In this document: positions 23,021 through 50,675 of the stretch, piece after piece | Numbering within the stretch: the first letter of the stretch is position 1 | How the letters are laid out: each line of letters begins with the position of its first letter | From: Secundilactobacillus kimchicus JCM 15530 | GTDB lineage: Bacteria > Bacillota > Bacilli > Lactobacillales > Lactobacillaceae | Length of the DNA: 64,000 nucleotides | Assembly: GCF_001433995.1 (NCBI RefSeq) | Contig: NZ_AZCX01000002.1 | Location: forward strand, 124,001-188,000 | Reading direction: 5' to 3' | Made by a program: the position numbers and the translations under genes | Notes under the pieces: generated by a model | What the model was told of the DNA's origin: nothing | The model's input: the letters and a program-made list of their open reading frames with translations, nothing else | Databases searched by the model: none

Positions 23021-23037
23021 CATTTGGATTCAGTCAT

Positions 23038-23112
23038 GTTCCATTATGCTCCCTTCGCTGGTACTAACCAGATCAGGTTCAATGGGTGTATCTCAGCCAA
23101 AAGGCACCCCAG
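23038..23112 (-). promoter_or_regulatory. TPP riboswitch (THI element)
   Basis: In gene sense the conserved THI-box segments occur in order: GGGGTGCC, GGCTGAGATACACCC, AACCTGATCTGG, then TACCAGCGAAGGGA. These form the pyrimidine- and pyrophosphate-sensor helices of the TPP aptamer. It controls the downstream ECF operon through the terminator at 22976-23020. Confidence 0.96.
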
Positions 23113-23132
23113 ATAACGTTTAGTTCAGTAGT

Positions 23133-46548: not shown

Positions 46549-47322
46549 CTAGCCTTCGAAATCGTTAAAGAATTCGAGTAACTTATCTTGCGTCAGCGCT
46601 TTTTTAGCATCGCCTGAAACGTCAAAGGTAATCTGACCATCGTTGACAACAATCAGTCGGTTACCATACGTCAAGGCATCGTCCAAGTGATGTGTGATCA
46701 TCAAACAAGTCAGATGTTGGTCAGTGATGCGCTCATTGGTCGTTCGCATTAATTGTTGCGAGGTTTTGGGATCTAAGGCGGCTGTGTGTTCATCCAATAA
46801 TAAGATGTCTGGCCGTTTTAACGTTGCCATCAAGAAACTCAGCGCTTGTCGTTGACCACCGGATAAGTTGCCAGTGGGGGTGTTTAACCGCTGCTCCAAG
46901 CCGTTGTTCATGGTTGAAGTGATTTCTTTAAAATGTGGCATCGCCTGCTTTAAATGCCGAGGCACCAGCCCACGACGCTGGCCACGCTTTTCAGCCAAAA
47001 GGAGGTTTTCAGCGACAGTCATTCGTGGTGCCGTTCCGAGCTTAGGGTCTTGGAAAACCCGACTCAAGAAGCGTGTCCGCTGTTCCTCAGATTCGTGGCC
47101 GACCGGTTTACCGTGGAGTAAAATATCTCCGGAATCAATGGGGAGGTTTCCGCCAATTGCATTAAATAAGGTTGACTTTCCGGCGCCGTTTGACCCGAGA
47201 ACGGTAATAAAGTCGCCATCGTTAATTGTTAGGTTCAGGTGTTTTAAAATCATAATTTGCTCGGCCGTGTTCTGGTTTACGTTGACCACAACATCGCGCA
47301 ATTCAAGAATCGGGTTACTCAT
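46549..47322 (-). CDS. ABC transporter ATP-binding protein (TrpZ-like)
   Basis: A 257-aa ATPase with Walker A GSNGAGKST, Q-loop RVFQDPKLGTAP, signature LSGGQRQALSFLMA, Walker B LLLDEHTAALDP (His in place of the usual Pro in DEP) and switch His in MITHHLDDAL. The DEH variant is typical of the TrpXYZ/YcjV-like group of importers. It overlaps the permease gene by 8 bp and is the last gene of the operon. Confidence 0.85.
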   Translation of the reverse strand: MSNPILELRDVVVNVNQNTAEQIMILKHLNLTINDGDFITVLGSNGAGKSTLFNAIGGNLPIDSGDILLHGKPVGHESEEQRTRFLSRVFQDPKLGTAPRMTVAENLLLAEKRGQRRGLVPRHLKQAMPHFKEITSTMNNGLEQRLNTPTGNLSGGQRQALSFLMATLKRPDILLLDEHTAALDPKTSQQLMRTTNERITDQHLTCLMITHHLDDALTYGNRLIVVNDGQITFDVSGDAKKALTQDKLLEFFNDFEG

Positions 47323-48217
47323 GAGCAGTCACCCCCCGTTTGATCACTTTTTTAATGTTAAATAACCGTTGAAAGACCGGTAGCATCATGCATAAGGCCA
47401 AGACGACTGAGGAGAGTAGCTTTAAGTCGTTGGTTGAAAAACCGAGTTTCAACACAAGAAGTAAAACGAAACGGTATAGAATTGATCCAAGGGTCACGGC
47501 GATGAGTCGCTGATTCAAAGTCAACTCGCCAAAAACCACTTCACCGATGATGATGGACGCTAGTGCAATGACGATGACGCCGATTCCCATGCTGACATCT
47601 GCGTAACCGTCGTTTTGGGCGACCAACGCACCACCTAAGCCGATGATGCCGTTGGAGACCATCAGGCCCATGATTTTCATGTTATCGGTACGGATACCCA
47701 GCGAGCGAGCCATTTTTTCGTTATCACCGGTTGCGATGAAGGCCTGTCCTAAATCGGTCTGTAAAAAGTAGACCAAAAGAAGGGTCAAGACGACAATAAT
47801 GATCATTCCAAGGGTCACACTGTCAAAGTACATTGGCATGCTTTTTAAGAAAGGCAGCTTCAACAGAGTCGGTTTGTTAAGGAGGGTCAAGTTCGCCCGG
47901 CCCATAATTCGAAGGTTGATCGAGTAAGCAGCGGTCATGACCAAAATCCCAGCTAAGAGAATGGGAATCTTGCCTTTGGTATAAAGTAAACCGGTGGCGA
48001 GGCCGCAAAGCATTCCGACACCAAAGGCCAAAAGAGAGGCCAAAAGTGGGTCAACGCCCTGATTAATCGCCGCAACACAGGCGGCTGCCCCCATTGGAAA
48101 GGTCCCTTCAACGGTCATATCAGGAAAATCAAGAATTCGAAATGTTAAAAATAAACCGAGGCCAAGCGTGGCCCAGAGCAGTCCTTGGCCGACTGCGGAT
48201 ACGCCTAATCCAATCAT
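47315..48217 (-). CDS. ABC transporter permease (TrpY-like, BPD_transp_2 type)
   Basis: A 300-aa permease with about eight or nine transmembrane segments, related to the branched-chain amino acid/ribose permease group. Features: LGLGLFLTFRILDFPDMTVEG at the N-terminus, TGDNEKMARSLGIRTDNMKI, which is the ATPase-coupling loop, and GLGGALVAQNDGYADVSMG. It overlaps the binding-protein gene by 4 bp and the ATPase gene by 8 bp. Tryptophan as substrate is inferred from the family. Confidence 0.85.
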   Translation of the reverse strand: MIGLGVSAVGQGLLWATLGLGLFLTFRILDFPDMTVEGTFPMGAAACVAAINQGVDPLLASLLAFGVGMLCGLATGLLYTKGKIPILLAGILVMTAAYSINLRIMGRANLTLLNKPTLLKLPFLKSMPMYFDSVTLGMIIIVVLTLLLVYFLQTDLGQAFIATGDNEKMARSLGIRTDNMKIMGLMVSNGIIGLGGALVAQNDGYADVSMGIGVIVIALASIIIGEVVFGELTLNQRLIAVTLGSILYRFVLLLVLKLGFSTNDLKLLSSVVLALCMMLPVFQRLFNIKKVIKRGVTAHE

Positions 48218-49212
48218 TTAAAGATCTCTCCTTTCGCTTGTGCTTCTTTAATGAGGGCTGCTGGGAATGTAATACCCAATTTTTTGGCTGCCGTCATGTT
48301 GAGAGTCAGATCGCCGTGCTTGAAGTAGTTGATTGGCATATCGCCAGGCTTTTCACCCTTCAAGATGCGGGCGACCATTTTTCCCGTTTCGATCCCGAGT
48401 TTGTATTGGTTAATACTGTATGTTGCAAGGCCACCGTCTTTAACCATAGTATCAACGGCTGGGAAGACTGGTACTTTAGCGGCCGTGGCATTATTGGCCA
48501 GCGTCTGCATCGCACTGGCCACTGTGTTGTCGGTTGGGACATAAACGGCGTCCACGTTTTGAACCATTTGTTGAGAGACTTGTTGGACGTCATTAGTGTT
48601 TGAGATTGAGTAGGCTTTCAAAGCCACGTGTTCCCGATCGCACAGGGCTTTAAATTCCTTGTACTGGGTCACAGCAGAATCGTCACTTGACGTGTACATG
48701 ATGCCGAGCGTCTTCATATGTGGCATCAAGCGTTTGATTAAGCCTAGTTGTTGGGCGAGGGGGGCTTGGTCCGACACCCCAGTAATATTAGCGCCGGGAT
48801 GTTGGTTATTTTTGACCAAGCCAGCCCCCTTGGGATCCGTTACCGCGCCCAACACGATTGGCATCTTGGAAGAGGCGTTAGCTAGTGCCTGAGCCGACGG
48901 TGTCGCAATACCGACAGCCACGTTGGCCCCCTCCGTCACGAACCGGTTACTCATGGTCTGAAGGTTACTCTGATCATTTTGAGCGTTTTGAAAGTCAATT
49001 TTGACATCTCGATCGGCTTTAAAACCATCGTCAGCCAATCCCTTGATGATTCCGTGGTGAATGGCATCCAAAGCGGGATGTGACATGAGTTGAAGAATGC
49101 CGACCGTGGGTTTTCCGGCACTGGGTCGCCCGGTTGAGGAAGTTTGTTCCTGAACGAAAGCAAACCCTAGAAAGACGAGAATAATAGCAATTAATCCGTA
49201 CAGTCGTTTCAT
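48214..49212 (-). CDS. ABC transporter substrate-binding protein (TrpX-like)
   Basis: A 332-aa binding protein of the ABC_sub_bind type: VGILQLMSHPALDAIHHGI, VAVGIATPSAQALAN, LGAVTDPKGAGLV and NITGVSDQAPLAQQL are typical. The N-terminus has a signal-like hydrophobic stretch (residues 5-20) but no lipobox Cys, so the protein is probably held by an uncleaved anchor or secreted. It is the first gene of the operon, preceded by a long structured leader. In lactic acid bacteria this family is annotated as tryptophan importer; the Trp codon in the leader peptide fits this. Confidence 0.82.
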   Translation of the reverse strand: MKRLYGLIAIILVFLGFAFVQEQTSSTGRPSAGKPTVGILQLMSHPALDAIHHGIIKGLADDGFKADRDVKIDFQNAQNDQSNLQTMSNRFVTEGANVAVGIATPSAQALANASSKMPIVLGAVTDPKGAGLVKNNQHPGANITGVSDQAPLAQQLGLIKRLMPHMKTLGIMYTSSDDSAVTQYKEFKALCDREHVALKAYSISNTNDVQQVSQQMVQNVDAVYVPTDNTVASAMQTLANNATAAKVPVFPAVDTMVKDGGLATYSINQYKLGIETGKMVARILKGEKPGDMPINYFKHGDLTLNMTAAKKLGITFPAALIKEAQAKGEIFK

Positions 49213-49241
49213 AGTTAACCACCTAACATAGTATTTTTTAA

Positions 49242-49311
49242 AACAAAAAAGACGACTCCCTGCACAGAAAGTCGTCGTAAGCGACGTGCAAGGTTGGTCT
49301 CATGCAGCGTC
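49242..49311 (-). promoter_or_regulatory. attenuator of the trpX operon: terminator, antiterminator and anti-antiterminator
   Basis: Three overlapping hairpins are readable in gene sense. C (49251-49276): GACGACT...GAGTCGTC followed by TTTTTT, an intrinsic terminator. B (49259-49292): CTTGCAC-GTCG, loop CTTA, CGAC...GTGCAGG, which uses the left arm of C and would prevent it. A (49283-49311): GACG-c-TGCA...TGCACGTC, which uses the left arm of B and would prevent it. This is the logic of a transcription attenuator. No T-box sequence is present. Confidence 0.65.
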
Positions 49312-49384
49312 ACTCGCATTACAAAGTAACCGGCATGGATGCGTGTTTCACATTCCTCAAACCGCACCCGAAGTAGCAGTTTGA

Positions 49385-49432
49385 TTACCGGCTTTGCCAA
49401 TAGGTATTCAGTTGTTGACAAGAAGTTGTCAT
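49385..49432 (-). CDS. candidate leader peptide (15 aa, contains Tyr-Trp)
   Basis: A short reading frame ATG...TAA at the 5' end of the trpX leader RNA encodes MTTSCQQLNTYWQSR. GGGGGAA stands about 6 bases before the ATG, and a strong promoter lies just upstream, so it is probably translated. Its single Trp follows Tyr near the end. Ribosome position on this peptide could set which of the downstream hairpins forms. Only one Trp codon is present, so classical Trp starvation sensing is not certain. Confidence 0.45.
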   Translation of the reverse strand: MTTSCQQLNTYWQSR

Positions 49433-49459
49433 GCGAATTCCCCCATATAAAGTACTCTC

Positions 49460-49489
49460 ATTATAATCAAATCACCTAAAAGGCGTCAA
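49460..49489 (-). promoter_or_regulatory. promoter of the trpX-like operon
   Basis: In gene sense TTGACG-18-TATAAT. The transcript would begin near 49453, giving a leader of about 240 bases before the first gene. Confidence 0.75.
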
Positions 49490-49506
49490 GATGCAAAATA
49501 TCTTGC

Positions 49507-49535
49507 TTGACCAGAAGAACATGGCGTGATAAATT
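49507..49535 (+). promoter_or_regulatory. promoter of metA
   Basis: TTGACC at 49507-49512 and TAAATT at 49530-49535 with a 17-base spacer, divergent from the trpX promoter 18 bases away. It is followed by the T-box leader. Confidence 0.7.
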
Positions 49536-49555
49536 AACAGTCAATGAGAATAGAA

Positions 49556-49812
49556 TGAGTCTAAGAAGAGAAGAGTAGTGAGTTATCGGTTTAAAGAGAG
49601 CGCTGGGATGGTGTGACAGGGTAGCCGATTGTCATGAAGATGAACTTGGAGACTGGTGCGGTCGGATTACCGGCTAGGGCCACGGTCGGCGTCCGATACA
49701 GTGCCGAAGTCAATTGACTTCATGCGATTTATTTTGTGAGAAATAAATGAATTTGGGTGGTATCACGCGAAAACGTCCCTGGTTAAGGAATTAATCAGGG
49801 ACGTTTTTTTGA
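49556..49812 (+). promoter_or_regulatory. T-box leader of metA, methionine-specific type
   Basis: Stem I is closed by AGTCT/AGACT and contains AGAGTAGTGAG (AGTA motif), AGAGAG, GGTGTGA and the specifier segment GAAGATGAACTT with AUG. The T-box sequence GGGTGGTATCACGCG lies at 49755-49769. The terminator AACGTCCCTG / CAGGGACGTT with T-run ends at about 49812. Uncharged tRNA-Met would favour antitermination. The same GAAGATGAAC segment occurs in the T-box at 8020-8262. Confidence 0.92.
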
Positions 49813-49832
49813 TGTTATAAGGAGGGCTTGCG

Positions 49833-50675
49833 ATGACCGTCACGTTAGAGAATGGATTTTTAAAACAGCAGTTAGCTGCGCAGAGTAGTACGACCGCTTC
49901 GGCGGTAAAATTGGTGATTGTTAATTTGATGCCGAATAAGCTGGAGACAGAACGGCAATTTGTTAATTTACTAGCGGCACTCAGCCAAGATGTTAGGGTT
50001 ACGTTTGCTAGAATGGCCACCCATCAAAGTCGACATACGGATGAAGCTGCGCTGCAAGCCCATTACGTGACACTTGATGACATTTTTTATCAAGATTTCG
50101 ACGGTCTGATTGTCACTGGAGCACCGGTTGAGACCTTGGCATTCGCTCACGTCGATTACTGGGCGGAATTTCAGGCTTGGTTAGACTGGCGTGACCAGCA
50201 CGTTGATCAGACCATCTTTGAATGCTGGGCAGCTCAGGCGGCGTTATTCGTGGATGCGGGGATTGAAAAGCAAGTGACTGCTCAGAAGGTCTTTGGGGTC
50301 TATCGTTCTCAGGTAGTCGCCAACACGCCGTTGACAACCGGCTTAGCCACCGTTTCGATGCCTCAGTCCCGGCATGCGACGTTGCCCGAGCCCGATACCT
50401 CCAGCATCACCACCTTAGTTGAAGATGGTCAGGCTGGCCCAATCGTGTTATCTAACCCCGCAAAGCGCAGCTTGTACATCAGTGGGCACCCAGAATACGA
50501 AACAGAGACGCTCATCAATGAATTTCGCCGGGATCAAAAAAAGGGCCAAGCCATTCAGTTGCCGAAAAATTACTTTGCGGCGGCTTGTCCCGTGAATACG
50601 TGGCACCAAGATAGCGTCAAGTTATATAACAACTGGTTGTCTCAAGTTCGAACCCATACCCTAGCTAACCTATAG
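49833..50675 (+). CDS. metA: homoserine O-acyltransferase MetA
   Basis: The 280-aa enzyme acylates homoserine (acetyl- or succinyl-CoA), the first committed step to methionine. It belongs to the glutamine-amidotransferase-like HTS family: VNLMPNKLETERQFVNLL, GLIVTGAPVETL, catalytic Cys in ECWAAQAALF (about residue 131), and SGHPEYETETLINEF with the catalytic His and Glu. It is slightly shorter than E. coli MetA. The ATG follows AAGGAGG. Methionine T-box control supports the call. Acetyl versus succinyl donor cannot be decided reliably by eye. Confidence 0.9.
   Translation: MTVTLENGFLKQQLAAQSSTTASAVKLVIVNLMPNKLETERQFVNLLAALSQDVRVTFARMATHQSRHTDEAALQAHYVTLDDIFYQDFDGLIVTGAPVETLAFAHVDYWAEFQAWLDWRDQHVDQTIFECWAAQAALFVDAGIEKQVTAQKVFGVYRSQVVANTPLTTGLATVSMPQSRHATLPEPDTSSITTLVEDGQAGPIVLSNPAKRSLYISGHPEYETETLINEFRRDQKKGQAIQLPKNYFAAACPVNTWHQDSVKLYNNWLSQVRTHTLANL

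Follow-up and report, generated by a model that had tools for sequence, protein, structure and literature searches.

A conserved leader ahead of trpX, a probable ribosome-mediated attenuator related to the RF04312 (trpB) motif

The leader ahead of trpX in the window (the whole stretch of 64,000 nucleotides that was analysed) is real, conserved and larger than the original prediction described. It is made up of a small ORF and seven RNA segments, and the hairpins A, B and C noticed earlier are the last three pairings of this array. The leader is very probably a ribosome-mediated transcription attenuator that senses the charging of tRNA-Trp, as judged from sequence comparison. The same switch most likely recurs in other bacteria, with the sensing codon altered to match the downstream gene. 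The main new point is that the trpB motif (RF04312), so far an orphan riboswitch candidate, most likely forms the downstream half of this attenuator, whose sensor would have been recoded many times. If true, this would provide a sensor and a mechanism for a candidate with more than 900 examples (as given in the available portion of PMC11109978), explain the probable control of tryptophan uptake in many lactic acid bacteria where no T-box is involved, and offer a natural series in which evolution exchanged the sensed amino acid and kept the RNA machine.

All parts of the leader lie on the minus strand (Table 1). The promoter, the 15-codon frame with its Tyr-Trp pair and ribosome site, and hairpins A, B and C were recovered where they had been placed, and C resembles an intrinsic terminator. 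In relatives, the position of the GGGGG ribosome site is mostly occupied by GGAGG or AGGAG. The pairwise competition claimed for the three hairpins holds for A with B and for B with C, which overlap, but not for A with C, which share no bases and coexist in the minimum-energy fold, so that not every pair of the three is mutually exclusive. The stem between the leader codons and a downstream arm (P1), adjacent to the single Trp codon of the ORF, had been overlooked, together with pairings 1:2, 2:3 and 3:4 upstream of A. The pairings form a relay: leader codons (segment 0) with the 3' arm of P1, then 1:2, 2:3, 3:4, 4:5, 5:6 and 6:7. The 237-nt leader is more stable than 200 of 200 dinucleotide shuffles (z -3.72), and the weakest of its pairings is 3:4 (-7.8 kcal/mol). 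On the opposite strand, a T-box-like leader (49554-49783 (+); RF00230 74.8 bits, under the 93-bit cut-off) precedes a MetA-family gene (49833-50675) that is divergent from the trpX leader. The window also contains a TPP riboswitch at 23032-23121 (-), scoring 70 bits.

Table 1. Leader parts and operon genes in the window, with the basis of each assignment.
Feature	Position	Strand	Basis
Promoter TTGACG-18-TATAAT	49460..49489	-	11/12 consensus matches, predicted from sequence
Ribosome site GGGGG ahead of the small ORF	49440..49444	-	sequence
Leader peptide ORF MTTSCQQLNTYWQSR and stop, 15 codons	49385..49432	-	ATG 49432, stop ends 49385
Tyr-Trp pair of the leader ORF	49397..49402	-	
Sensor Trp codon UGG	49397..49399	-	conservation in relatives
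Segment 0, leader codons AGCCGGUA, 5' arm of P1	49386..49393	-	swap test z -7.9 (0:3')
P1 3' arm UGCCGGUU, within segment 3	49328..49335	-	alignment A1 and swap test
Segment 1 UCAAACUGC, partner of segment 2	49376..49384	-	1:2 z -11.7
Segment 2 GGGUGCGGUUUGA, partner of segment 1 or 3	49357..49369	-	swap test
Segment 3 CGCAUCCAUGCCGG, partner of segment 2 or 4	49330..49343	-	2:3 z -7.0; 3:4 z -6.2
Pairing 2:3	49369-49363:49343-49337	-	
Hairpin A, segments 4:5, T1 homologue without U run	49280..49313	-	swap test (z -17.3), sequence
Core of hairpin A, GACG.CUGCA:UGCA.CGUC	49311-49283	-	
Pairing B, segments 5:6, antiterminator of C	49258..49294	-	z -9.3; paired at 49293-49258
Hairpin C, segments 6:7 and U run, intrinsic terminator T2	49245..49276	-	sequence (hairpin 49276-49251, then T6); 6:7 z -23.6
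trpX, substrate-binding protein	48214..49212	-	NCBIfam NF041285 481.6 bits, cut-off 390
Permease (trpY-like)	47315..48217	-	Pfam PF02653; name by position
ATPase (trpZ-like)	46549..47322	-	Pfam PF00005; name by position

Since Rfam gave no match to the window leader, the comparison started from neighbours of trpX, a gene found by protein search in 54 of 60 related genomes. A covariance model of 27 leaders that covers P1 and 2:3 (R1) finds the leader upstream of 28 of the 30 trpX loci examined. R1 was made from 27 of the same loci, so the independent test is a second model, R2, built from 12 leaders of genera other than that of the window. Across the 64 kb, R2 has the window leader as its sole match (E 1.6e-7), and it recovers 15/15 loci of the window's genus. 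In the family, R1 has matches in 263 of 397 genomes, spread over 25 of 40 genera, and in the order in 126 of 395 genomes from 38 of 80 genera. A class-wide sample yielded matches in 5 of 299 genomes, every one in the same order; these census counts, like the genome searches with RF04312 below, were made with stricter filters that lose weak matches. The view that ribosome-mediated attenuation is rare in this family is contradicted by these figures, which make the leader common before trpX. The original prediction was to fall if homologues kept neither the peptide nor the stems, and the outcome is the opposite: both are kept. No description of this leader was found in open-licence PMC papers.

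Nearly all Trp leaders examined have trpX or trpB downstream, and trpX lies within 1500 nt of 144 of the 151 distinct leaders. In L175 and L182 the gene behind is trpB, which also follows two Alloscardovia leaders whose ORF has four Trp codons. An inserted reverse-transcriptase ORF resembling that of a group II intron separates leader and trpX in L091, and L094 has an apparent remnant of the trpX end behind its leader. Two leaders with Trp, L045 and L104, stand ahead of oligopeptide-binding proteins that match no equivalog above cut-off.

An in-frame ORF crosses the site in all 151 distinct leaders and starts with ATG in 147. The sensor codon is TGG in 149 of the 151, a figure that leans towards Trp as the 27 source leaders of R1 were chosen for a Trp ORF. 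Owing to this bias of R1, a second search used the 2:3 hairpin pattern alone. It marked 92 places in named genomes, 81 with trpX within 2.2 kb, and every one of these 81 carries a small ORF with a ribosome site and Trp. The same criterion was satisfied in 16 of 273 windows taken further upstream and in 1 of 81 on the opposite strand. Among the 11 places without trpX within 2.2 kb, L268, L269, L280 and L290 have a Trp ORF, and L269 and L280 precede trpB; L263, L273, L303 and L311 have none and look like chance matches, and L290 minus, L324 and L326 are too close to the end of their sequence. The 142 distinct ORFs carry one Trp in 108 cases, two in 31, three in one and none in two. The stop codon follows 3 to 11 codons past the Trp, and from this variable distance we conclude that the RNA structure keeps a fixed position relative to the Trp codon and not to the stop. 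In the trpX leaders L020, L206, L207, L208, L210 and L211, which R1 scores weakly or misses, the small ORF has a tandem Trp-Trp (an ending like WWRR before the stop). A second small Trp ORF, MRQWTSQRWQSK and stop, stands directly ahead of trpX in L028 and L134 besides the leader peptide, and L154 has, by eye, a MKKKVTKRWRNK-like ORF in the same place.

The pairings were compared among relatives by a swap test, in which duplex energies with the leader's own partners are set against those with swapped partners, in 42 representatives of 135 leaders. These 135 are the leaders in which a script placed both terminal hairpins; it failed in 16 of the 151, which were left out, and it misplaces some others (L114, L118 and L063, for example). 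For each of the seven neighbour pairings, the own partner is better in the sense that 0 of 2000 permutations did as well; the leaders are kin by descent, and such counts should not be read as probabilities. The z scores range from -6.2 to -23.6 (Table 1). Of 16 control pairings between non-neighbours, 14 have |z|<2, the exceptions being 0:5 (z -3.4) and 4:7 (z -2.5). The placement model itself contained P1 and 2:3, and 4:5 and 6:7 were picked as hairpins with windows that share the loop. Independent weight is thus carried by 1:2, 3:4 and 5:6, which were unused in placement; with trimmed, non-overlapping windows, 5:6 retains z -8.0. In alignment A1, 89.4% of cells pair and 23 cells have double changes, compared with 5.5 in shuffles; pairs with double changes exceed the shuffles weakly (25/500), and further pair types are not in excess (299/500 shuffles at least as high). 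The leader pairings co-vary among relatives more than by chance. The co-varying pairings include mutually exclusive ones, 3:4 against 4:5 and 5:6 against 6:7. The homologue of A (T1) has its own U run in many relatives, which therefore have two tandem terminators.

We propose the following mechanism. If the leader is not translated, its codons would pair with segment 3 as P1, and 1:2 would form as well; segment 3, tied up in P1, could not reach segment 4, so that 4:5 would form and transcription end. With ample Trp, the ribosome would proceed to the stop and cover segment 1, allowing 2:3 to form, and transcription would again end. When charged tRNA-Trp is short, the ribosome would stall at UGG, where it occupies the 5' arm of P1 but not segment 1. 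In this stalled state, 1:2 would form, segment 3 would pair with 4, and the freed segment 5 would pair with 6 and block C. Through this chain, a single codon decision would be relayed past two hairpins. Without a U run in the window's genus, hairpin A seems to be a pure relay there. Counting against this scheme, most leaders have a single Trp codon, fewer than textbook attenuators.

The scheme was examined by a ribosome scan, with the ribosome edge 12 nt past the A site and the transcript ended just after segment 4. Four or more 3:4 pairs are expected in 21% of the 135 leaders with no ribosome, in 80% with the A site at Trp, in 81% one codon past Trp, in 43% at the stop, and in 52-54% four to six codons before Trp. 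In the window leader, the expected 3:4 pairs number 0.0 with no ribosome, 8.8 at Trp and 7.9 at the stop. The no-translation and stalled states are therefore separated in this leader, whereas the stalled and stop states (8.8 versus 7.9) are left unseparated by equilibrium folding, so we infer the mechanism from a well-supported anatomy.

The trpB motif RF04312 is the same as SRC-39-1, which was described as a strong riboswitch candidate of Firmicutes and Fusobacteria, where an uncharacterised ABC transporter mostly follows it (Narunsky et al. 2024, available portion of PMC11109978). Within open-licence PMC, the terms "trpB motif", "SRC-39-1" and "RF04312" were found in that paper only. Among 20 leader loci chosen for scanning, 18 have an RF04312 match (107 positions) that lies over the 2:3 hairpin and T1, nine above its gathering score and nine below. 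It also occurs in 7 of 20 further trpX upstream regions (four above the cut-off), two others of which have a T-box. On the window leader itself, RF04312 has no match at E<=5 (gathering cut-off 59 bits); the identity of the element is supported by overlap, in that the relatives matched by R1 overlap RF04312 and the genus-free R2 finds the window leader. The small ORF, part of a leader of the window type, lies upstream of the motif as published. In the form given in the available portion of PMC11109978, the motif is without the upstream ORF, P1, segment 1, T2 and the 5:6 relay, all present in the leader, and that portion mentions neither a small ORF for the motif nor trpX. Searches across the phylum gave RF04312 in 4 of 398 genomes. 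Two matches, L226 and L227, have no such leader and were taken as chance; the control genome, Lactococcus lactis, has a weak match below the cut-off.

In the order of genome G1335, which appears to be clostridial, RF04312 was found in 32 of 155 genomes, none above the cut-off, and 30 loci were examined of the 47 places listed. In all 30, a small ORF with a ribosome site ends shortly before RF04312. Seven ORFs with His runs precede HisS (six) or HisZ (one), three with Leu runs precede one type of SNF symporter, sixteen with Phe/Tyr precede another SNF type, and four more with Phe/Tyr precede a BrnQ protein. The sensor codons fit the downstream gene in 30/30 loci, His with hisS or hisZ (7) and Phe/Tyr or Leu with transporters (23). 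The BrnQ-linked leaders (L234, L238, L242 and L246) run counter to this match by name, as these proteins are named for branched-chain amino acids; their Phe/Tyr codons hint at a possible aromatic specificity of those carriers. Elsewhere, NSS/SNF transporters have Leu, Phe and Trp specificities, as supported by their T-boxes (PMC2494555, in part). In 27 distinct loci of this order, the swap test gave z -7.4 for P1 (sensor region with its shoulder) and z -7.1 for 1:2, both unused in placement, compared with control values of -2.6 (0:2), -1.1 and +0.6.

A further variant on the same RNA chassis, ahead of other transporters, is found in one genus, in six paralogues without Trp (L097, L099, L187, L196, L201 and L205) that end in RLRSR or RLRSQ before the stop, where CTG CGA replaces TGG CAA. 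Arg-Leu-Arg is a stalling motif of antibiotic leader peptides (PMC8632094, in part). L097 precedes a fusion of a polar amino-acid binding protein and a permease, and has no RF04312 match at E<=1; L099 precedes an OppA-like protein, and the other four resemble L097 by eye. These copies may carry an Arg or Leu sensor, an assignment we regard as uncertain. Overall, we consider it likely that RF04312 is no riboswitch and forms the downstream half of a codon-programmable attenuator. In this family, the antiterminator arm would pair directly with the sensor codons, the shared chassis would carry codons for Trp, Phe, Tyr, Leu or His, and probably for Arg (or Leu), ahead of matching genes in Bacillota, Alloscardovia and Fusobacterium, and one ribosome stall would be relayed past two tandem terminators.

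Other explanations of the leader were weighed against attenuation. In a nascent-peptide arrest of the TnaC type, free Trp in the ribosome tunnel would act with the leader peptide to stall termination and set the RNA fold. Such a constraint at the peptide level is hinted at by the hydrophobic residue and Asn shortly before the Trp in 117 of the 142 distinct ORFs, with many synonymous Leu codons, and the single Trp of most leaders also agrees with it. The TnaC arrest peptide has a fixed spacing of its key residues to the stop codon, whereas no fixed spacing is seen here, the Asn-to-Trp distance (1 to 4) varying as does that from Trp to stop. Ahead of other genes, the sensor gives way to runs of Phe, Tyr, Leu or His, which also speaks against arrest, an explanation we regard as unlikely. 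The original prediction offered either translation of the peptide or a small ligand as the switch of A, B and C. The first alternative is supported; the second meets sensor codons that change with the gene and, as these track the gene in 30 loci, a single small ligand cannot explain the family of His (hisS/hisZ), Leu and Phe/Tyr (transporters) and Trp (trpX/trpB) leaders. A small-molecule riboswitch, as proposed for the trpB motif, would account for the conserved hairpin and terminator and the position in the 5' UTR, and has the standing of a published candidate. As the motif begins after the small ORF, and as the available portion of PMC11109978 itself leaves a classic attenuator possible, we find this explanation very improbable.

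Direct reading of tRNA-Trp by a T-box has a precedent before trpX of Streptococcus suis (PMC9382623, in part). This control, previously thought usual before trpX, was found in just 2 of the 20 trpX upstream regions without an R1 match that were scanned (L213 and L221). The earlier statement that no T-box, S-box or other familiar riboswitch matches the leader agrees with our Rfam searches, in which none matched on the leader strand and RF00230 had no match on the minus strand of 49100-49900 at E<=5; the sole T-box nearby is the one on the opposite strand before metA. For this leader, we give a T-box practically no weight. An ordinary 5' UTR that has one or two terminators and does not switch would suit the one terminator with a good U run, but co-varying alternative pairings and a match between sensor and gene would be hard to reconcile with it, and this explanation is scarcely credible. 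Attenuation by a translating ribosome is thus the reading that we retain.

Attenuators of the trpL type combine a short ORF containing one or more Trp codons with competing hairpins and a terminator, with Trp genes behind. By description, the trpX leader shares all of these, the ORF with Trp, the competing hairpins, the terminator and the Trp genes; it differs in having mostly one Trp codon, codons that pair with the antiterminator arm, a longer relay and tandem hairpins. Leader-peptide attenuators for His are already in print for Gram-positive bacteria (PMC2965389 and PMC9413887, in part). Those of Firmicutes have a His-rich leader before hisS, hisZ or his genes, as in the His loci here, which may partly be the same; in the available portions of the two papers, His leaders are connected neither with RF04312 nor with leaders for Trp, Phe, Tyr or Leu. 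The T-box of Streptococcus suis serves the same operon and the same physiological signal, but its RNA reads the tRNA directly without a leader peptide, unlike the window leader (available portion of PMC9382623). A leucine-rich attenuator peptide of S. aureus is also a case of leader-peptide attenuation in Bacillota, with another gene and amino acid (PMC5794164, in part). The type of attenuator is already known; the variant described here is new and widespread.
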